From assembly GCA_938083225.1 (NCBI GenBank), contig CALKCH010000051.1, forward strand, positions 1 through 34,677: a stretch of 34,677 bases of DNA, in the 5' to 3' direction. The notes under the pieces are model-generated. The model worked only from the letters and a program-made list of their open reading frames with translations, ran no database searches and had not been told where the DNA came from. Below are positions 22,333 to 33,062 of this stretch, one piece after another (within the stretch, counting starts at the first letter, position 1; each line of letters starts with the position of its first letter). Position numbers and translations under genes: made by a program. Source of the stretch: Candidatus Bipolaricaulota bacterium (GTDB taxonomy: Bacteria > Bipolaricaulota > Bipolaricaulia > Bipolaricaulales > Bipolaricaulaceae).

Positions 22333-25014
22333 TTAGTCCTCCAGGGGGGTGAGACGCACCGCACACACTTTGTACTCCGGGATTTTCGCCTCCGGATCGA
22401 GGAAAGCCCCCGTGAGGAGGTTAGCGGGAGCCTCGCCGAAATGGAAGGGGATGAACACCGTGCCCCTGGGGACCCGCTCGGTGAGTTTTGCCCGCACGAT
22501 GATCGTCCCTCGGCGCGAGGAGACCCGCACTCCCTTCCCCTCTTCAATCCCCAAATTCAAGGCATCCGCTGGATGGATTTCCAAGTAAGCCTCAGGGGAA
22601 AGCTCCACCAGGCCTTCCACGCGGCCGGTCATGCTGCGGGAATGATAGTGCCAGAGGTTGCGGCCGGTGGTGAGGATGAACGGATATTCCCGGTCGGGGG
22701 TCTCCCTGGGCGGCTCCCACTCCACAGGGTGGAACTTGCCCCGGCCCCGCGCGAACTGATCTTTGTGAAGATAAGGGGTGCCGGGATGATCGGGGGAGAA
22801 ACAGGGCCAGTGAATCCCGCCTTTCTCCAAACGAGCATAGGAGATGCCCCCGTAAGTGGGAACGAGAGAGGCGATTTCCTCCATGATTTTCGCGGGGTGC
22901 TCATAAGTTAAGGGATAGCCCAGGCGTTGAGCCAAAGCGCCAATGATTTGCCAATCGGGCTTAGCCTGACCGGGGGGAGGGAAGGCACTGCGCAGCAACT
23001 GGACTTTACGCTCCGTGTTTGTGAACGTTCCGTCTTTTTCCGCAAAGCTTGCGGCAGGGAGGATCACATGAGCGTAGGGCGTGGTTTCATTGGGGAAGAT
23101 ATCCAGCACCACCAAGAACTCCAAACCTGCCAAAGCCTCGGCCACATGGGCGATTTGGGGGTCGGAAACCATGGGATTTTCGCCCATGATCACCATAGCT
23201 TTGAGCTGGCCAGCCCGTGCAGCCTCGAACATCTCGACTACGGTGAGGCCGGGGGCAGCGGGGATAGGCCGGCCCCAAGCCGCCTGGAACTTGGCGCGTA
23301 CCCGGGGATCCAAAAGAGATTGGTAGCCCGGGAGAACCTCGGGGATGGCGCCCATGTCACAGGCGCCTTGTACGTTGTTCTGGCCCCGCAGAGGATTCAC
23401 TCCTGTAGCCGGCCGCCCCACTTGGCCCGAAAGAAGCGCCAAATTGGCCACAGCCAACACGTTGGCCGTGCCATGGGTGTGTTGGGTCAGGCCCATGGCG
23501 TAAAAGATCATGGCGTTCTTGGCTCGCCCGTAAGCTCTGGCCGCCTCCACCAAGAGATCCCGGGGGATGCCCGTGATCTCTTCCACCCGCTCCGGAGTGT
23601 ATTGTTCCACCGCCTGCCGGAACTGCTCGAACCCCTCGCACCGCTCTTCCACGAACTTTTTGTTCCAAAGGCCTTCTTGGAGGAGGACGTGGCAAAAGCC
23701 GTTGAGCCAGGCCACGTCCGTACCGGGGCGGGGCCGGAGGAAAAAGTGAGCCCATTCTGCTAGCTCGATCCTGCGAGGATCGACCACGATGAGCACAGCT
23801 CCCCGGCGCACGGCTTGCTTAATTTCCTGGGCTACCACGGGGTGAGCTTCCGTGGTGTTGGAGCCTGTCACCAAAATACAGTCAGCATCGCGTATCTCTT
23901 CGATCGTGTTGGTCATGGCTCCCGACCCAAACGCGCGGCCCAAACCCACCACGCTCGGGGCGTGGCAAAGGCGAGCACAGTGATCCACGTTGTCCGTGCC
24001 TATCACAGCCCGCATAAATTTTTGGAATAGGTAATTCTCTTCGTTGGTGCACTTGGCAGAAGCCAGGCCCCCTATGGCGTCGGGTCCATATTTCTCTTTG
24101 GTGGCCAAAAGTCGCGCCGCTACCAAATCCAAAGCTTCCTCCCACGAAGCCTCCCTGAACTTTTGGCCCTCGCGGATGAGAGGGACTTTGAGTCGATCAG
24201 GGTGGTGAACAAAAGCCAAGCCAAATCGGCCTTTCACGCATAACCGGAATCCCTGATACCCTCCGGAAACCCGCACGATCCGATTGTTGCGCACATGGAG
24301 GGTGATGGGGCAGCCACAGCCACAAAACGGGCACACAGTATCAACTTTTTTGAGCTCCCACTCCCGTCCCTGGAAACGGCGGGCTTTCTCGGTGAGCGCA
24401 CCCGTGGGGCAAACGGCCACGCACTGGCCACACAGCTCGCAGTTCGTCCCGGTGAGAGGCTTTTCCAACCCAGTAGAAATGCGCGTGAAAAAGCCCCGGG
24501 AAACAGAGCTCAACACGCTGCGTCCCTGCACCTCTTCACAGACGCGCACGCATCTTCCGCAAAGGATACATTTTTCAGGCTCGTAGCGAATAAAAGGGTT
24601 ATCCTCTCGAACTGGGAAAACACGGCGAGCATGGTCTGGCCCGACGAAGCGGTTCTTCTCTAGGCCATATTCGTAAGCGTACCGCTGTAGCTCACAAGAT
24701 CCGTTGCGCTCACACGTCAGACAGTCTTGGGGATGATCGGAGAGGATGAGCTCCAGGGTGAGGCGGCGCAGGTGCCGCAATCTTTGTGTATCCGTCTGCA
24801 CTTCCATTCCATCTTGGGCCTCGTGGTAGCAAGAGGTGAGGAGCTGGCCATTGGCCTCCACCAAACACAGCCGGCAGATTCCAGAAGGGGGAAGAGCAGG
24901 ATGGTGGCAAAGGTGGGGGATTTCTAGGCCTGCTTTTTGTGCGGCCGCAAAGAGCGTGGTGCCTTTAGGCACGGTGACTTCCTTCCCGTCGATGCGCAGG
25001 CGCACCTCGTTCAT
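22333..25014 (-). CDS. fdhA: Molybdenum/tungsten formate dehydrogenase catalytic subunit (Cys type) with NuoG-like N-terminus
   Basis: The 893-residue protein would reduce CO2 to formate, or the reverse, in the cytoplasm. Residues 1-225 are NuoG/HydA-like: a [2Fe-2S] site (CHHPALPPSGICRLC), a His-Cys3 [4Fe-4S] site (HPQDCLTCERNGSC) and two ferredoxin clusters (CILCGRCVRVC, CELCGQCVAVCP). The bis-MGD catalytic part begins with CPFCGCGCP. HCARLCHAPSV places Cys350-His351 at the metal-ligand (Sec/Cys) position of formate dehydrogenases. The track's start at 25071 is too long. ATG 25014 overlaps the upstream stop (ATGA). fdhD and mobA nearby support the assignment. Other Cys-type molybdopterin oxidoreductases are less likely. 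Confidence 0.88.
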   Translation of the reverse strand: MNEVRLRIDGKEVTVPKGTTLFAAAQKAGLEIPHLCHHPALPPSGICRLCLVEANGQLLTSCYHEAQDGMEVQTDTQRLRHLRRLTLELILSDHPQDCLTCERNGSCELQRYAYEYGLEKNRFVGPDHARRVFPVREDNPFIRYEPEKCILCGRCVRVCEEVQGRSVLSSVSRGFFTRISTGLEKPLTGTNCELCGQCVAVCPTGALTEKARRFQGREWELKKVDTVCPFCGCGCPITLHVRNNRIVRVSGGYQGFRLCVKGRFGLAFVHHPDRLKVPLIREGQKFREASWEEALDLVAARLLATKEKYGPDAIGGLASAKCTNEENYLFQKFMRAVIGTDNVDHCARLCHAPSVVGLGRAFGSGAMTNTIEEIRDADCILVTGSNTTEAHPVVAQEIKQAVRRGAVLIVVDPRRIELAEWAHFFLRPRPGTDVAWLNGFCHVLLQEGLWNKKFVEERCEGFEQFRQAVEQYTPERVEEITGIPRDLLVEAARAYGRAKNAMIFYAMGLTQHTHGTANVLAVANLALLSGQVGRPATGVNPLRGQNNVQGACDMGAIPEVLPGYQSLLDPRVRAKFQAAWGRPIPAAPGLTVVEMFEAARAGQLKAMVIMGENPMVSDPQIAHVAEALAGLEFLVVLDIFPNETTPYAHVILPAASFAEKDGTFTNTERKVQLLRSAFPPPGQAKPDWQIIGALAQRLGYPLTYEHPAKIMEEIASLVPTYGGISYARLEKGGIHWPCFSPDHPGTPYLHKDQFARGRGKFHPVEWEPPRETPDREYPFILTTGRNLWHYHSRSMTGRVEGLVELSPEAYLEIHPADALNLGIEEGKGVRVSSRRGTIIVRAKLTERVPRGTVFIPFHFGEAPANLLTGAFLDPEAKIPEYKVCAVRLTPLED

Positions 25015-26861
25015 AGTTTGGCGATCGCCCCCTTCGGACAAACAGAAACACAGGCTCCGCAGCGGATGCACAGAGCCTTCACAATGCGGTGCGGTTTACC
25101 CGGCTCCCCCCAAATGGCGCCGCTGGGACAAACCCGAAGACAGAGCCCACAGCCCGCGCATTTTTCCTCCGCAATCGCGTAGGAGAAAAGGGCTCGGCAA
25201 ACCCCGGCTGGGCAGTGTCCAGCAAGGTGGGCCTCGTATTCCGCGCGAAAATAGCGGAGGGTGGTGAGGACCGGGTTGGGGGCAGTCCGGCCCAATCCAC
25301 ACAAGGAAGTTTCTTGCACCCCATGGGCCAGCTCTTCCAGGAGCTCCAGGTCGCCGGGCCGGCCGCGGCCGGCGGTGATGCGGGTCAGGATCTCCAGCAT
25401 CCTCTTGGTGCCGATGCGGCAGGGCGGGCACTGTCCACAGGATTCAGCTTGGGTGAATTCCAGGAAAAATCTGGCCAGCTCCACCATGCAGGTGTCCTCG
25501 TCCAAGACGACCATGCCGCCGGAGCCCATCATGGATCCCGCTTGGGTCAGGGTTTCGTAGTCGATGGCCAGGTCCAGAAGCTCAGCGGGCAGGCATCCTC
25601 CGGATGGCCCCCCGATTTGTACGGCTTTGAGGGCCTTGCCCTGGGGCGGTCCGCCGCCCACCTCCGAGATCAGCTGGCCCAACGGGGTGCCTATGGGCAC
25701 CTCGACAAGCCCAGTGTTCCGCACCTTGCCGGTGAGGGAGAAGATCTTGGTGCCCGGTGAACGGGAGGTTCCTAGGGTGCGAAACCATTCCGCGCCGTGG
25801 CGGCTGATGAGGGGAACATTGGCCCAAGTCTCCACGTTGTTGATCACTGTGGGCTTGCCGAACAGGCCGGATCCCACGGGGTAAGGGGGTCTTGGCCGGG
25901 GCTGGCCGCGCCGCCCCTCAATGGAAGCGATGAGGGCCGTCTCCTCTCCGCACACAAAAGCTCCTGCCCCTTCAAAAATGTGGATGCGGAAAGAAAAAGT
26001 CGTGCCGAGGATGTCGGAACCCAAAAGGCCAAGCTCTTCGGCCTGGGCCACGGCAATCCGCAAGTGTTTCACCGCCAACGGATATTCTGCGCGCACATAG
26101 ATGTAACCCTCGTCAGCGCCCACCGCATAGGCTCCGATGATCATCCCTTCAATTACAGAGTGCGGGTTCCCCTCGAGGACGCTTCTGTCCATGTAGGCGC
26201 CGGGATCGCCCTCGTCGCCATTGCAGATCACATATTTTTTTGGACCGGGTGCGCTGCGAGCAAGTTCCCATTTCTTTCCCGTGGGAAAACCAGCCCCGCC
26301 CCTTCCCCTGAGACCAGCCCGCTTGATCTCCTCGAGCACGGCTTCCGGGGGCATGTGCAAAGCTTGCCAAGCGGCAAAATAACCTCCTTGGGCAATGTAC
26401 TCCCGTATGTCCAAGGGATTGATGAGACCACAGTCAGCTAACACCCGCCGCCGCTGGCCTCGATAAAACGTGATTTGTTCCAACTCCGGAATTTCCCAAG
26501 CGGGATCGCCCCCGATGCGCCCCAAGGCTAGGTCAGGTCGCAGGTCCCCGTGGGAGAAAGAAGACGCGAGCTCGAGCGCCTTGTCCCGATCCATTTCCCC
26601 ATAAAAAATGCGCGTTTCGTCAGGAAAACGAAGCTCAGCAATTGGTTCTCGTGCGCAAAATCCTAGGCACCCAGTCTCTCCCACCCTGAATTTCAAGCCC
26701 TGGGACTCCACGGCCTCACAGAAAGCTTGATACACTGCGGCCGCCCCGGAGGCCAAGCCACAGGATGCCATGCCCACCAGAATTTTTCCCTCGGCTGGCC
26801 ACAGCAAGGTCTTACCTTCTTGACGGACCCGCTCTAAGTCCTCAAGGCTCCGGAGTTTCAC
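25011..26861 (-). CDS. NADH-binding NuoF/HydB-like subunit of the formate dehydrogenase complex
   Basis: The ORF track runs to 27305 out of frame through the upstream gene. GTG 26861 overlaps that gene's stop (GTGA) and gives 616 residues. An N-terminal thioredoxin-like [2Fe-2S] domain has Cys34, Cys65 and Cys69. The NuoF-type flavin/NAD domain has GLRGRGGAGFPTGKKWE and CNGDEGDPGAYMDR. SCGQCPPCRIGTKRML holds the N3-type [4Fe-4S] cluster. The C-terminus adds a two-cluster ferredoxin domain (CAGCGLCLRVCP, CIRCGACVSVCP). This is the layout of HydB and HylB-type subunits that pass electrons between NAD(P)H, ferredoxin and the partner enzyme. Electron bifurcation is possible but cannot be shown from sequence alone. 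Confidence 0.88.
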   Translation of the reverse strand: MKLRSLEDLERVRQEGKTLLWPAEGKILVGMASCGLASGAAAVYQAFCEAVESQGLKFRVGETGCLGFCAREPIAELRFPDETRIFYGEMDRDKALELASSFSHGDLRPDLALGRIGGDPAWEIPELEQITFYRGQRRRVLADCGLINPLDIREYIAQGGYFAAWQALHMPPEAVLEEIKRAGLRGRGGAGFPTGKKWELARSAPGPKKYVICNGDEGDPGAYMDRSVLEGNPHSVIEGMIIGAYAVGADEGYIYVRAEYPLAVKHLRIAVAQAEELGLLGSDILGTTFSFRIHIFEGAGAFVCGEETALIASIEGRRGQPRPRPPYPVGSGLFGKPTVINNVETWANVPLISRHGAEWFRTLGTSRSPGTKIFSLTGKVRNTGLVEVPIGTPLGQLISEVGGGPPQGKALKAVQIGGPSGGCLPAELLDLAIDYETLTQAGSMMGSGGMVVLDEDTCMVELARFFLEFTQAESCGQCPPCRIGTKRMLEILTRITAGRGRPGDLELLEELAHGVQETSLCGLGRTAPNPVLTTLRYFRAEYEAHLAGHCPAGVCRALFSYAIAEEKCAGCGLCLRVCPSGAIWGEPGKPHRIVKALCIRCGACVSVCPKGAIAKL

Positions 26862-27292
26862 AGGGCTCCTCGCACCACGCTCACAGCTTTTTGGGGATCG
26901 AGGCGGCCAAAAGGCCGACCGTCCACCACCACAACTGGAGCCAAACTGCAGCACCCCACACAACGCACCTCTTCTAGAGAAACCCGCCCATCTCCGCCGA
27001 ATTCCCGCGCCAAGGCCTCCTGGATGACCTGGGATCCGCGCACATGACAGGCAGTCCCACGGCAAACTTGTACCAAATGCTCTCCCGGCTTGGTCAAACG
27101 GAATTGGGCATAAAAGGTGGCCACTCCGTAGACCCGGCTCAGCGGAATTTTTAGCCGCTGGGCTACCGCCTCCAGCGCTAGCTCGGGGAGGTACCCCAGT
27201 TCGCCTTGGATTTCCTGAAGTGCAGGGATCAGGTTTTTCTCTCCCGGATGCCGAGCGATGATCCGGTCCACTACCTGATTCATGTCGCTCAT
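26858..27292 (-). CDS. NuoE/HydC-like [2Fe-2S] subunit
   Basis: A 144-residue thioredoxin-like ferredoxin subunit that works with the NuoF-like protein. It has the helical N-terminal segment (LIPALQEIQGELGYLPELALEAVA), YGVATFYAQFRL, and the four cluster cysteines in VCRGTACHVRG and VRCVGCCSLAPVVVVDG. ATG 27292 leads; a second in-frame ATG at 27283 is possible. There is no Shine-Dalgarno site, and the promoter-like -10 box lies close to the start. It is the first gene of the NuoE-NuoF-FdhA-GNAT operon, which reads through overlapping stops and starts. Confidence 0.9.
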   Translation of the reverse strand: MSDMNQVVDRIIARHPGEKNLIPALQEIQGELGYLPELALEAVAQRLKIPLSRVYGVATFYAQFRLTKPGEHLVQVCRGTACHVRGSQVIQEALAREFGGDGRVSLEEVRCVGCCSLAPVVVVDGRPFGRLDPQKAVSVVRGAL

Positions 27293-27444: not shown

Positions 27445-28317
27445 TTGAGTGAAACTCGTGCCCAGGCGGTGGTATGGTTTCAAGCTGCTGGCTGCACTGG
27501 CTGTTCCATATCCCTGATGAACGCCGATTACCCCAACCTCAAGAACCTGCTTCTCGATGAGCTAGTGCCCGGGAAGGCCTTAATCCTTCGGTTTCACGCC
27601 ACCTTGATGGGCCTCACTGGCCAACCTGCCTTGGAGGTGCTGGAACGCGTTCGCGAAGAGGAAGCCGGAGCGTACTTGCTCGTCGTGGAAGGGGCCATCC
27701 CCACCGGGGAAGACGGACGGTTCGGGAGGGTCGGGGATATCCCGATGGCAGAGCGGGTGCGGGAGTTGGCCCTACGCTCGGCTGGAGTGGTAGCTTTGGG
27801 GACCTGTGCCGCTTATGGAGGGATCCCCGCGGGAGCGCCCAACCCCACCTCCTGTGTAGGTGTAGGAGAATTTTTCCGACGGGAGGGGATAGGAATTCCG
27901 GTGATCAACGTGCCCGGTTGCCCCCCTCACCCTCGTTGGTTCGTGGAAACGGTAGCACAGCTCATTTTCAACCCTTCGGCAATAGGACAACTCGACGAGG
28001 TGGGGCGCCTTCGCTCCGTGTATCCAGGGTTGATTCACGAAAATTGCCCAAGGCGAGCGGATTTTGATGTTGGCCGATTCGCTGCCAGCTTCGGGGAAGC
28101 GGGTTGCCTGTTGAAACTCGGTTGCAAAGGTCCCTACACCAGCTCCCGCTGCCCCACTCACCGCTGGAATGGAGGAGTGAACTGGTGCATCGAGGCAGGA
28201 CACCCGTGCCTTGGGTGCTGTGAGCCAGAGTTCCCGGACTTTCCAGCCCCGCTGTTTCGCAAAGTGCGGGCAGAGGATGCCGCTGCCTTTTATCGGAGGA
28301 ACCTATGCGCCAGGTGA
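27445..28317 (+). CDS. [NiFe] hydrogenase small subunit, no Tat signal
   Basis: Carries the three iron-sulfur clusters that move electrons to and from the active site. The proximal cluster is GCTGCS plus the later GTCAAYGG and VPGCPPHP cysteines. The distal cluster begins with HENC and continues with AGCLLKLGC. The medial region is CPTHRWNGGVNWC, then GHPCLGC. Here Cys replaces the Pro found in many group 1 enzymes, suggesting a medial [4Fe-4S] cluster. TTG 27445 is chosen because AAGGAGG lies seven bases upstream and the protein then begins MSETRAQAVVWFQAAGC, directly before the first cluster motif. This gives 290 residues with no export signal, so it is cytoplasmic. It overlaps the large-subunit gene by 13 bases. 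Confidence 0.88.
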   Translation: MSETRAQAVVWFQAAGCTGCSISLMNADYPNLKNLLLDELVPGKALILRFHATLMGLTGQPALEVLERVREEEAGAYLLVVEGAIPTGEDGRFGRVGDIPMAERVRELALRSAGVVALGTCAAYGGIPAGAPNPTSCVGVGEFFRREGIGIPVINVPGCPPHPRWFVETVAQLIFNPSAIGQLDEVGRLRSVYPGLIHENCPRRADFDVGRFAASFGEAGCLLKLGCKGPYTSSRCPTHRWNGGVNWCIEAGHPCLGCCEPEFPDFPAPLFRKVRAEDAAAFYRRNLCAR

Positions 28318-29723
28318 CCATTGATCCCATCACTCGAATCGAGGGACACCTTCGGGTGGAGATCAAAGTCGAGGGCGGAAAGATTGTGCAAGCCCGCTGT
28401 TCAGGGGCTCTATTTCGTGGGCTAGAAATTATCCTGCTTGGTCGTTTTCCCCTCGATGCCCAGCGGATTACCCCCAGGATCTGCGGCGTTTGCCCGGTGG
28501 CCCACGCCACTGCCGCAGCCTTGGCCTTGGATACAGCCCTGGGAGTGGAAGAAAATATTCCCCAAAATGGTTGGCTCTTACGAAACCTCATTTACGCAGC
28601 CAATTGGCTTCACAACCACGTCTTGCATTTCTATCACCTCGCTCTGCCCGATTACTTAGATCCCAAAGGGACTCCACTTGCCGGCCTACTTGCCGCTGAA
28701 CTCGGGGATCGCCGATTTTCTCCCGAAGAAAACCAAACGCTTTTAGAACACTATGCCTTGGCCCTGGAGGTACGGCGTAAAGCCCATGAGCTGGTGGCCA
28801 TCTTTGGCGGGAAAATGCCTCACGAAGTGGGGATTGTGCCCGGCGGCGTCACACAAAAGCCGGGGCTTGCCGAGGTCACAGCCTTTCGCTTTCGCCTCCG
28901 AGAGATCCGGGATTTTTTGGAGAACATTTACGTGAAAGACGTGCTTCTTCTGGCCGCCCGCTACCCAGATTACTTCGCTCTGGGACGGGTGGGGAGACTC
29001 TTGAGTTTCGGAGCGTTTCCCGAGCCCTCCCGCACCCGCGTTTTTCCGGCCGGCTCTCTCCAGGACGGGGCGGTGCAACCCTTGGACTGTGAGGGAATTG
29101 CGGAGGAGGTAGCGCGGTCTTGGTACGCGGGAGGGGCTGGTCACCCAAGGGCAGGTCAAACCGAACCGGACCCGTATAAAGCCGAGGCCTATTCCTGGAT
29201 CAAAGCTCCTCGGTATAAGGGGAAAGCGTTGGAAGTGGGGCCGGCAGCCCGGGTCTTCCTCGCCTCCCACCTGGGCCCCGGAGATTTTGCGAAGCTCGCC
29301 GGGGAACTTCTGAGCGAGGCCCGAATCAGCCTGGAACAGCTCAGTTCCGCTATGGGACGCCATTTAGCCCGGGCCATCGAGGCGCTGTTTTTGGCCCAAC
29401 GCATGGAAACCTGGCTTGCGGAACTAGAGATCAACGGGCCTGTGGCCGTACCCTTCGGCATACCCAGCGAAGCCACAGGACAAGGCCTTACAGATGCGCC
29501 TCGGGGGGCCCTCGGCCACTGGTTGCGCATCGAACGCGGAGTCATCGCCCACTACCAAGTGATCTCTCCCACCACTTGGAACGCTTCGCCCCGGGATGAA
29601 CAGGGTCAACCCGGGCCCATCGAGGAAGCGTTGGAGGGCACACCCGTGAGCGGCGATGGGCTACTTGAGGCAGGAAGAATCGTGCGCTCTTTTGATCCAT
29701 GCTTAGCTTGTGCTGTACAGTAA
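28305..29723 (+). CDS. [NiFe] hydrogenase large subunit lacking the C-terminal maturation peptide
   Basis: Holds the Ni-Fe site. It begins MRQVTIDPITRIEGHLR. The L1 motif RICGVCPVAHATA gives Cys60 and Cys63. The L2 motif DPCLACAVQ gives Cys466 and Cys469, and the stop codon follows Gln472 at once. In most large subunits this motif ends in His and is followed by a peptide of about 15 residues removed by a specific protease. Here there is no peptide, and Gln stands in place of His. At 472 residues it is slightly short for group 1. GGAGG lies just before the ATG. The next gene, metV, begins nine bases after the stop. The overall type looks group 1/2-like, but the subgroup is not assigned. Confidence 0.88.
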   Translation: MRQVTIDPITRIEGHLRVEIKVEGGKIVQARCSGALFRGLEIILLGRFPLDAQRITPRICGVCPVAHATAAALALDTALGVEENIPQNGWLLRNLIYAANWLHNHVLHFYHLALPDYLDPKGTPLAGLLAAELGDRRFSPEENQTLLEHYALALEVRRKAHELVAIFGGKMPHEVGIVPGGVTQKPGLAEVTAFRFRLREIRDFLENIYVKDVLLLAARYPDYFALGRVGRLLSFGAFPEPSRTRVFPAGSLQDGAVQPLDCEGIAEEVARSWYAGGAGHPRAGQTEPDPYKAEAYSWIKAPRYKGKALEVGPAARVFLASHLGPGDFAKLAGELLSEARISLEQLSSAMGRHLARAIEALFLAQRMETWLAELEINGPVAVPFGIPSEATGQGLTDAPRGALGHWLRIERGVIAHYQVISPTTWNASPRDEQGQPGPIEEALEGTPVSGDGLLEAGRIVRSFDPCLACAVQ

Positions 29724-29732
29724 GGAGGAAGG

Positions 29733-30410
29733 ATGCTTGTCTCTGAACTCAAGCCCATCGGAGAGATTTTAGGAAGTCTGCGGCCTGGGGAGCGCGTGTT
29801 TGTGGTGGCCTGTGGCGGGTGTGCCCAAACCACGGGCGCCGGAGGAGAAAAGGCCATCCAAACCCTAAAGTCGGCGGTGTTGGAAGGGGAACACCCTGTG
29901 GTGGGCGCTCTGGAAATCCCATTTTTGTGCAATAAAGCACTGATAGGGCTTAAGCTGAGCCGGGTCCGCACCACCGTGGACAAAGCCGAAGTTTTTGTCG
30001 TGGCTTCCTGTGGGGTGGGAGTCCAAGCCGTGGCCACGGTAACCGGGAAACCCACGGTTCCTGCGTCCAACACCCTCTATTACGGGGCATTTCAGGGGGT
30101 TTGGCCGGCGGAGGAGCGTTGCGCGCGCTGCGGGGAATGTGTTTTGGCCGAGACCGGGGGGATTTGCCCCCTTACCGTCTGTCCCAAAGGTCTTCTGCAC
30201 GGGCCCTGTGGCGGTTCTTACCAGGGGGAATGTGAGCTCGAGCCCGGCCGGCCCTGCGGTTGGCAGAAAATTTACGACCGGCTCGCGGAGCTGGGCCGGC
30301 TGGACCTGTTTGAGAAATTCCGGCCGCCCAAGGATCGCCGGCGGGCCTTGGATGTGCCCCTTTCCCGACGCCGCACCACCCTGTGGGACCTGGAGTTTTG
30401 GGAGGAATGA
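29733..30410 (+). CDS. metV: Methylenetetrahydrofolate reductase partner protein MetV
   Basis: MetV partners MetF in acetogens and supplies electrons for methylene-THF reduction. The 225-residue protein has VACGGCAQTTGAGGE near the N-terminus. A Cys-rich C-terminal region follows: CARCGECVLAETGGICPLTVCPKGLLHGPCGG, then CELEPGRPCGW, the pattern of the MTHFR C-terminal iron-sulfur/zinc family. A strong AAGGAGG precedes the ATG. It stops one base before metF starts, so the two subunits are made together. Its place directly after the hydrogenase genes suggests H2, or a carrier reduced by it, as electron source; that is an inference. Confidence 0.87.
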   Translation: MLVSELKPIGEILGSLRPGERVFVVACGGCAQTTGAGGEKAIQTLKSAVLEGEHPVVGALEIPFLCNKALIGLKLSRVRTTVDKAEVFVVASCGVGVQAVATVTGKPTVPASNTLYYGAFQGVWPAEERCARCGECVLAETGGICPLTVCPKGLLHGPCGGSYQGECELEPGRPCGWQKIYDRLAELGRLDLFEKFRPPKDRRRALDVPLSRRRTTLWDLEFWEE

Positions 30411-30411
30411 C

Positions 30412-31287
30412 ATGCGTCTGCGCGAGCGCTTGGCCCACGGAGAATTTGTGATCACCTGCGAGGCGGCCCCGCCCAAGGGGGCTGACGTCGGCCCCGCCCT
30501 GGAAGCGGTGCGTAAGCTCGCTCCCAAAGTCCACGCCTTCAACGTCACAGACCTGCAGTCCTCGGTTTTGCGCATGAGCTCTTGGGCCCTTTGTGCCCTC
30601 ATCAAACGTGAAGGCTTTGAGCCCATTTTGCAGATGACCTGCCGCGACCGGAATCGCTTGGCCCTGCAAGCCGATCTTTTGGGCGCCTGGGCTTTGGGAA
30701 TTGAGAACGTGCTCGTCCTCACCGGAGATCACCCCGTTTTGGGCGACCATCCGCAAGCCATGCCCGTGTTCGATTTGGACTCGGTGCAGCTCATCGCCGT
30801 CATTCAAGCGTTGAACTCTGGCCGGGATTTGGCTGGAAATGAGCTTTCGGGTCGGACTGATTTCTTTGTGGGCGCGGCGGTGAATCCCACGGCTGAGCCC
30901 CTCGAGCCGCATCTGGCCAAGCTTCGGCTGAAGGCAAAGTTGGGAATCGGCTTCATTCAGACCCAGGTTGTTTACGATCCCCAGGCTTTCGTGCGGTTCG
31001 TGCAAAAGCTGGACGGGGTAAGGGTACCGATGCTAGTGGGCATCATCCCCCTCAAGTCCGCAAAGATGGCGCGGTTCATGAACGAGCACATCGCGGGAGT
31101 TCACGTGCCTGAGGAGATCATAAAAGTGATGGAGAGGGCCAAAACCCCGGAGGAAAGGAGACAAAGAAGCGTGGAAATCTGTGCCCGTATTGTTAGAGCT
31201 GTGCGCCCATACTGTCAGGGCATTCACTTCATGCCCATGGGTTGGGAAGATTGCGTGCCAGATATTGTGGAGCTCGCCGGAATCTGA
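30412..31287 (+). CDS. metF: Methylenetetrahydrofolate reductase
   Basis: Reduces methylene-THF to methyl-THF in the methyl branch of the Wood-Ljungdahl pathway. The ORF track's start at 30139 is out of the real context. ATG 30412, after GGGAGGAA, gives 291 residues. Family features are the early [12 protein letters not shown] with its Glu, [53 protein letters not shown], and [12 protein letters not shown] near the substrate site. The TIM-barrel flavin enzyme is the short bacterial form without a regulatory domain, usual for MetV-dependent enzymes. Confidence 0.93.
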
Positions 31288-31298
31288 AAGGAGGGTCC

Positions 31299-33062
31299 AT
31301 GCCTTACGATCCTGTGGTCCTAAAGGATTGGCAGATCGCGGCAGAGACGGAGAAGATGATGCCCACCCCTGAGGAGTGGGCGGACAGGCTGGGTTTGCGC
31401 AAGGACGAGATCATCCCTTACGGCCGCATTTGTAAACTCGATTTCCGTAAGATCTACGAGCGTCTCAAACATCGACCAAATGGGAAGTACATCGATGTCA
31501 CGGCCATCACGCCCACGCCCTTGGGGGAGGGAAAGACCACTACTACGCTGGGCCTGATCGAGGGCTTGGCCAAGCGGGGGAAGAACGTAGGGGGGTGCAT
31601 TCGGCAGCCTTCGGCCGGGCCGACGTTCAACATCAAGGGCACGGCCGCCGGCGGAGGGAACGCTTTGCTCATCCCCATGGCGGAGTTTTCCCTGGGCTTG
31701 ACAGGCGACATCGACGCCATCACCAACGCCCACAATTTGGCCATGGTGGCCCTCACCGCCCGGCTTCAGCACGAGTTCAATTATTCCGACGAGGAGCTGA
31801 AAAAGAGGGGCCTGCGCCGCCTGGACATCGACCCGCGCCGGGTGGAGATGCGCTGGGCTATCGACTTCTGTGCGCAGGCCCTGCGGCGCATCGTCATTGG
31901 CCTCGGCGGGAAAACGGATGGATTCCTAATGGAATCCGGGTTCCAAATCACGGTGTCCTCGGAGCTCATGGCTATCCTGGCCATCGCCAAGGACCTGGCG
32001 GATCTGCGGCGCAGGATCGGCGAGATCACCGTGGCCCACGACAAGCGGGGCCGTCCCATCACCTGTGAGGATTTGGAGGTGGCGGGAGCCATGGCCGCCT
32101 GGATGCGCAACACCATCAACCCCACCCTCTGCTCCACTGTCGAGTATCAGCCTGTTTTGGTCCATGCCGGTCCTTTCGCCAACATCGCTGTGGGCCAGTC
32201 TTCCGTCATCGGAGACCTTTTGGGACTGAAACTTTTTGATTATCATGTGACGGAGTCTGGTTTCGGGGCGGACATCGGCTTTGAGAAATTCTGGAACGTG
32301 AAGTGCCGCTTAAGCGGGCTTGTGCCCAATGTGGTCGTGGTCGTGTGCACGGTCCGCGCGCTCAAGATGCACGGTGGAGGCCCCCGGGTAGTGCCTGGCC
32401 GCCCCCTTCCTGAGGCCTACACAAGGGAAAATTTAGGCCTTGTGGAAAAAGGGGTGGCTAACCTCCTCCATCATATTGGGATCGTCAAAAAGTCCGGAGT
32501 GGTGCCGGTAGTGTGCATCAACCGTTTCCCCACGGATACAGAGGCGGAGATCCAGCTCGTGCGCAGGATCGTGGAGCAGGAGGCAAACGTGCGCTGTGCC
32601 GTGGGTGAACACTGGCTCAAAGGCGGGGAGGGCGCGTTGGAGCTGGCGGACGCGGTGATCGAGGCCTGTGAAGAGCCTGTGGACTTCCGCTTCCTTTACC
32701 CCCTAGAGATGCCCTTGCGGGAGCGGGTGGAGCTCATCGCCCGCGAGGTTTACGGCGCGGATGGGGTGGTGTGGACGCCCGAGGCCGAGGAAAAGGCGGA
32801 GGAGCTGGAGAAAAACGAGAAATTCCGGGACTTCTTCACCATGATGGTCAAAACCCAACTCTCGCTTTCCCACGATCCAAACTTGAAGGGCGTGCCCAAG
32901 GGTTGGAAGCTTCCCATCCGGGACATCCTCATGTTCACCGGAGCCAAGTTCCTTTGCCCCATGGCCGGCGACATCACCCTCATGCCCGGCACCTCCTCGG
33001 ACCCAGCGTTCCGGCGCATCGACATCGATGTAGAAACCGGGCAAGTGAAAGGCCTGTTCTAG
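31299..33062 (+). CDS. fhs: Formate--tetrahydrofolate ligase
   Basis: Activates formate with ATP to 10-formyl-THF, the step after formate dehydrogenase in the pathway. ATG 31299 after AGGAGG is preferred to the track's 31242. The 587-residue protein shows the ATP loop [17 protein letters not shown] (about 70), [60 protein letters not shown], and the C-terminal [15 protein letters not shown]. It is about 30 residues longer than many bacterial enzymes. Its stop and the convergent fdhD stop share the palindrome CTAG. Confidence 0.95.

Follow-up and report, generated by a model that had tools for sequence, protein, structure and literature searches.

A probably cytoplasmic [NiFe] hydrogenase linked to metV-metF in Bipolaricaulota, with a large subunit ending at the L2 motif

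The hydL gene on contig C51 of a Bipolaricaulota MAG (919,780 bases, 87% complete) encodes a [NiFe] hydrogenase large subunit that stops where a C-terminal peptide would otherwise begin. This raises the questions of whether the end is real, how such an enzyme would be matured, and what it serves. The window, meaning the whole stretch of 34,677 nucleotides analysed here, is this contig, and it contains the following features around hydL:

27445 to 28317, plus strand: hydS, [NiFe] hydrogenase small subunit, 290 aa (PF14720 and PF01058)
28305 to 29723, plus strand: hydL, [NiFe] hydrogenase large subunit, 472 aa, without C-terminal extension (PF00374)
29694 to 29723, plus strand: L2 motif DPCLACAVQ with TAA directly after it; Gln472 replaces the usual C-terminal His
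29721 to 29732, plus strand: hydL stop codon overlapping the metV Shine-Dalgarno sequence
29733 to 30410, plus strand: metV, Fe-S/Zn subunit of methylene-THF reductase, 225 aa (PF12225)
30412 to 31287, plus strand: metF, flavin subunit of methylene-THF reductase (PF02219)
31299 to 33062, plus strand: fhs, formate-THF ligase, in the same tight gene run (NF010032 above cut-off)
26858 to 27292, minus strand: NuoE/HoxE-like [2Fe-2S] subunit, divergent from hydS (PF01257)
25011 to 26834, minus strand: NuoF-like FMN/NADH subunit, NAD-linked formate dehydrogenase; start not fixed (PF01512, PF10589)
22333 to 25071, minus strand: alpha subunit of formate dehydrogenase, including a NuoG-type Fe-S domain; start not fixed (TIGR01591 above cut-off)

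The genes hydS-hydL-metV-metF-fhs form one tight run on the plus strand. The run begins at a TTG start (27445) preceded by a strong Shine-Dalgarno sequence, GGAAGGAGGT. hydS and hydL overlap by 13 nt, and the following gaps are 9 nt (hydL-metV), 1 nt (metV-metF, with the metF ATG at 30412) and 11 nt (metF-fhs). The Shine-Dalgarno context of metV reads TAAGGAGGAAGG-ATG, with the start at 29733, and the hydL TAA forms part of it. The reductase is of the MetVF type, as metV and metF are adjacent and the MetV Cys set is present; 11 of its 12 Cys are invariant in 20 hydSL-linked MetV proteins. The genes around metVF in the window are hydS-hydL, fhs and fdhD, and no RnfC2 or HdrCBA-MvhD genes were found in its metVF run. 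The position of the NuoE/HoxE-like gene next to hydS varies among relatives.

The C-terminus of HydL was then compared with those of its homologues. Residues D464 to Q472 spell DPCLACAVQ (29694-29720), followed by TAA at 29721-29723. This reading, made in the first-pass annotation, holds: the sequence coordinates agree and the 12 family homologues end alike, none of them with the usual extension. The hydrogenase was present in 22 of the 100 phylum genomes searched, the window's own being among the listed matches, and the 12 same-family homologues are 58-69% identical to HydL where full length. The stop falls at the identical residue in all 13 family genomes, window included, and the terminal residue is Gln in 12 and His in one (G017, L011/L038). 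A second Bipolaricaulota family (f5, n=5) ends with DPCMACAVH and a stop, and two further ones (n=4) continue beyond DPCLACAVH with tails of mostly about 15 residues. Cousins in other families and phyla retain tails of this length, with a gene for a HycI-type protease behind them. The 17 tabulated truncated sequences of two families use TAG (9), TGA (4) and TAA (4), and the 11 tabulated Gln rows use CAG (6) and CAA (5).

A sequencing or frameshift error near 29720, a worry raised by the first reading, is ruled out because the end is conserved across homologues and three stop codons and both Gln codons are used. Selenocysteine or recoding at the stop was rejected, as all three stop codons are in use. 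The frame relation between hydL and metV varies among truncated members, several of which are out of frame; in-frame spacing is not conserved, so neither recoding nor a read-through fusion to MetV as a conserved feature is supported. The AlphaFold model of HydL reached a pLDDT of 87 and a pTM of 0.91, with a score of about 44 for the last residues, so that the position of Gln472 is unreadable in this model.

Across 18 sequences, neither the RIEGH motif nor the two Ni-Fe CxxC pairs (RICGVC and DPCxxC; C60, C63, C466 and C469) vary. By sequence and fold search, the nearest solved structures to HydL are [NiFeSe] hydrogenases, with about 42% identity over the whole model. Its L2 residue is Cys466, encoded by TGC at 29700-29702; a selenocysteine TGA is absent, and HydL scores under the NiFeSe NCBIfam cut-offs (NF033181, NF045518). 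HydS has the ligand set for three [4Fe-4S] clusters and no Tat signal (no RRxF), and there is no cytochrome gene in the hydS-hydL run of the window, which sets HydSL apart from exported group 1 uptake hydrogenases. The Tat motif was found in none of the 15 MetV-linked small subunits checked and in all six unlinked relatives checked. Members of the Bacillota branch (e.g. Syntrophaceticus) have both Tat and tail, and L066 also has a cytochrome b gene. Judged by its sequence, HydSL is nearest to the [NiFeSe]/group 1 enzymes and is not an H2 sensor. A group 1/[NiFeSe]-like protein tied to MetVF is at odds with the hint in the first-pass annotation at H2 sensors or group 4 types.

A separate observation concerns four distant relatives that also stop at the L2 motif, here DPCxACAVH (L070 5989-10068, L072 5761-10104, L080 3145-7263, and the hydL end in L074). 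In all four, hydL is followed by a Tat-bearing hydS; in the three that were scanned further, a gene for a methyl-accepting chemotaxis protein comes next (PF00015, in most cases together with HAMP). Such an arrangement looks like H2 taxis, with a chemotaxis receptor coupled to an exported [NiFe] hydrogenase. To our knowledge, a link to such receptors has been known only for [FeFe] group C.

The presence of the tail was compared with that of its protease. Of the 15 extended MetV-linked members, 13 (among them L043, L044, L049, L055, L056, L059, L060, L061 and L063) have a HycI gene immediately after hydL and, in most cases, ahead of metV. No HycI gene was found on the same fragment with any truncated hydL, neither in the 16 MetV-linked cases nor in all 20, four others included. 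The claim that this enzyme is born processed and needs no endopeptidase fits this comparison of 13/15 with 0/20, as far as gene content can tell. In the 65-row set the trees require four changes between tail and no tail and two between His and Gln; the independent tail losses number only 2 to 4, so the association of tail and protease has no demonstrable significance once relatedness is counted. The statement that no endopeptidase gene lies nearby is correct for the window, where no HycI-type gene was found; the genome has protease genes elsewhere. Two other hydrogenases of the genome serve as an internal control. An Mvh-type hydrogenase on C39 retains its tail and has a PF01750 protease gene directly behind it. 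A NAD-linked, HoxH-like hydrogenase on C17 likewise retains its tail, with a protease-like ORF directly behind, and a stand-alone PF01750 gene lies on contig C1. The C17 ORF (L144 8136-8558) encodes 140 aa with the HycI-like motif GVGHPLRRDDG and has no Pfam match, HycI included. Peptide, protease and canonical terminal His have probably all been dropped by the Bipolaricaulota hydrogenase.

In L062 (4350-4401), a MetV-linked hydL ends with a four-residue tail, CIKM, and no protease gene precedes metV; this is possibly an intermediate stage in the loss of the tail. Regarding the effect of such losses, engineered tail removal in the C. necator MBH left the enzyme active (PMC7294309). Tail removal in E. 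coli Hyd-2 and in the C. necator soluble enzyme gave inactive, nickel-free proteins, according to the work as cited in PMC7294309.

The replacement of the terminal His by Gln, also pointed out in the first reading, is real and conserved in the family. One correction is needed: the Gln is not an outcome of tail loss, because L055 (a MAG labelled Vermiphilus) and L063 (an Omnitrophota MAG) combine DPCLAC(A/S)VQ with a tail and a HycI gene, and L038 is truncated with His. The idea that the Gln results from protease loss is weakened by the same L055 and L063. The extended large subunits of these two (L055 5995-8003, L063 5995-7997), each with an adjacent HycI gene, have Gln at the cleavage position itself, so their protease would need to cut after Gln. 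The family of the window and the extended-Gln pair are sisters (92/91 in the 37-row tree, 85/42 in the larger tree), and for this reason the Gln may be older than the tail loss. The usual C-terminal His/Arg of DPCxxCxx(H/R), which is not strictly defining, is replaced in the window. In known structures the terminal His contributes to holding a Mg/Fe site close to the active site, and its partner there is the Glu that corresponds to position 41 (E41) of HydL. This Glu, 19 residues before the first metal-binding Cys, is invariant in 18 sequences. The Gln makes this protein a natural mutant of the terminal residue.

The linkage of hydSL to metV was followed through the relatives. In the 65-row tree, metV lies on the same fragment in all 31 rows outside the Bacillota branch of a 36-row clade, and metF is also there in the MetV-linked rows wherever the contig is long enough. 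The linkage spans Bipolaricaulota, Chloroflexota, Armatimonadota, Spirochaetota, Omnitrophota, a Nitrospira-labelled MAG and others, and in the 37-row tree a single clade (84/80) unites the MetV-linked rows. The usual order is hydS-hydL-(hycI)-metV-metF, with exceptions in f4 (L044, L049) and L057. This conserved linkage, overlooked by the first-pass annotation, is the more important feature of the locus. In the three exceptions, proteins of about 630 aa are encoded between hycI (or hydL) and metF (L044 289-2208, L049 9076-10953, L057 7628-9511). Those of L044 and L049 have cyclic-nucleotide-binding and histidine-kinase domains (PF00027, PF00512, PF02518). The intervening proteins may be regulators of the reductase.

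Taken together, HydSL is probably a cytoplasmic group-1-like [NiFe] hydrogenase that has neither assembly peptide nor endopeptidase and passes electrons from H2 to MetVF, so that the whole would be an H2-dependent methylene-THF reductase. H2 would be oxidised in HydL, and the electrons would run through the three [4Fe-4S] clusters of HydS to MetV and on to the flavin of MetF, where methylene-THF would be reduced to methyl-THF. Acetyl-CoA synthase is encoded in the genome, so methyl-THF has a user. The potential of H2 is -414 mV and that of methylene-THF/methyl-THF is near -200 mV. The step from H2 to methylene-THF would therefore be downhill by about 40 kJ/mol, an energy that would be wasted unless coupled; the gene set shows no coupling partner, and the uncoupled step would pull the methyl branch in one direction. 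We infer the activity of HydSL, that no other protease acts on it, its physical binding to MetVF and the direction of electron flow.

Maturation would rely on HypA together with the other Hyp proteins and involve no proteolysis, a route also taken by the regulatory enzyme of C. necator and by the engineered MBH (PMC7294309). Searches of the genome, among those advised in the first-pass annotation, found HypA besides the protease genes on C39 and C1, and did not find HypD. No HypD match was obtained in the source MAG (87% complete) or in the carriers G017, G020 and G033; HypD was found in 9 of the 13 genomes with the truncated gene. Since contig C40 breaks off within 0.5 kb of hypA, the absence of HypD was judged to be mostly a matter of MAG incompleteness. 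G017 (96% complete) has a truncated hydL with His and other hydrogenase large subunits, and gave no match for HypD or HycI.

Other explanations of the locus were weighed against this proposal. HydSL might partner the divergent NuoEF-FdhA proteins, as a soluble NAD-linked enzyme or an H2-dependent CO2 reductase, with metVF as a mere pathway neighbour. In the window, as in several members of the family, nuoE-nuoF-fdhA genes do stand beside hydS, but this neighbourhood is absent or replaced in L035, L036, L040, L041 and the f5 family, whereas metVF is there in all. Moreover, nuoE and hydS lie on opposite strands, whereas hydS, hydL, metV and metF overlap or are 1-9 nt apart, and we regard such a partnership as unlikely. 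That HydL is a degenerate, inactive or nickel-free remnant, now serving as an electron-transfer subunit of the reductase, is rather improbable: the four metal-binding Cys and RIEGH are invariant in the 18 sequences, and HypA is present here and HypD in most carriers, although the joint loss of tail, protease and usual terminal His could be taken as decay and HypD was missed in the source MAG and three other carriers.

The missing tail could also be that of a group 2b-type H2 sensor, as these likewise end at DPCxxCxxH (C. necator HoxC and two HupV were checked). However, a tree in which HydSL shared a common clade with these 2b sequences was rejected (p-AU 0.015), the 2b branch lies 1.7 changes per column away, and no kinase gene adjoins hydSL in the window, where the neighbours are pathway enzymes; a sensor is therefore very improbable. 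It is scarcely credible, in turn, that the tail is indispensable and reaches the enzyme in some other way, as a separate peptide or through read-through or frameshifting into metV, so that processing would still occur. The metV of the window is in frame with hydL, and read-through would give a fusion, but such read-through runs into MetV and yields no tail-like peptide. Truncated members make use of all three stops, in several of them metV is out of frame with hydL, and no protease gene is linked.

The proposed H2-dependent methylene-THF reductase was compared with known systems. The [NiFeSe] HysAB and related group 1 [NiFe] hydrogenases are alike in structure (about 42% identity) and in the three-[4Fe-4S] small subunit; HydSL differs in having Cys rather than Sec, no Tat, no extension, a terminal Gln and the linkage to metVF. 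Natural extension-less [NiFe] hydrogenases are listed for groups 2b, 2d, 4c, 4e and 4g (PMC7294309; similarly PMC12134894). HydL resembles these in that its large subunit ends at the L2 motif, with endopeptidase-free maturation predicted here; however, it belongs to another branch (2b was tested), has no sensor link and is no energy-converting membrane enzyme. The extension-less state of the HydL branch is unlisted in PMC7294309. Since the protease gene is retained in sister lineages, its loss is visible in this branch.

Methylene-THF reductases are classed as types I-IV, none with hydrogenase genes of its own (PMC8760232). MetVF, MetVF-RnfC2 and MetVF-HdrCBA-MvhD (types II-IV) share the MetV and MetF core found here, but their electron-input genes are nothing, RnfC2 or Hdr/MvhD, respectively (PMC8760232), whereas here they are a complete [NiFe] hydrogenase. 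In Sporomusa ovata, a chain from H2 to methylene-THF has the same donor and acceptor (PMC9430772); its hydrogenase is periplasmic with a cytochrome b membrane link (PMC9430772), whereas HydSL has no Tat signal and lies in one run with metVF. In the open-access papers searched we found no report of a hydrogenase-metVF gene cluster, only of the Hdr/MvhD/RnfC2 types. The proposed arrangement is alike in principle to the H2-dependent CO2 reductase (HDCR), in which a hydrogenase is likewise coupled directly to an enzyme of the Wood-Ljungdahl pathway. HDCR of acetogens consists of an [FeFe] hydrogenase and a formate dehydrogenase.

The natural joint loss of peptide and protease within one branch makes the purpose of the C-terminal peptide testable, as extended sisters survive for comparison and the truncated enzyme did not turn into a sensor. 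The electron donor of MetVF-type methylene-THF reductases is debated for acetogens (PMC8760232). A hydrogenase whose genes share one run with metVF, an arrangement kept in several phyla, points to H2 as the donor in these lineages, and suggests an undescribed enzyme by which H2 would be used directly in carbon fixation.
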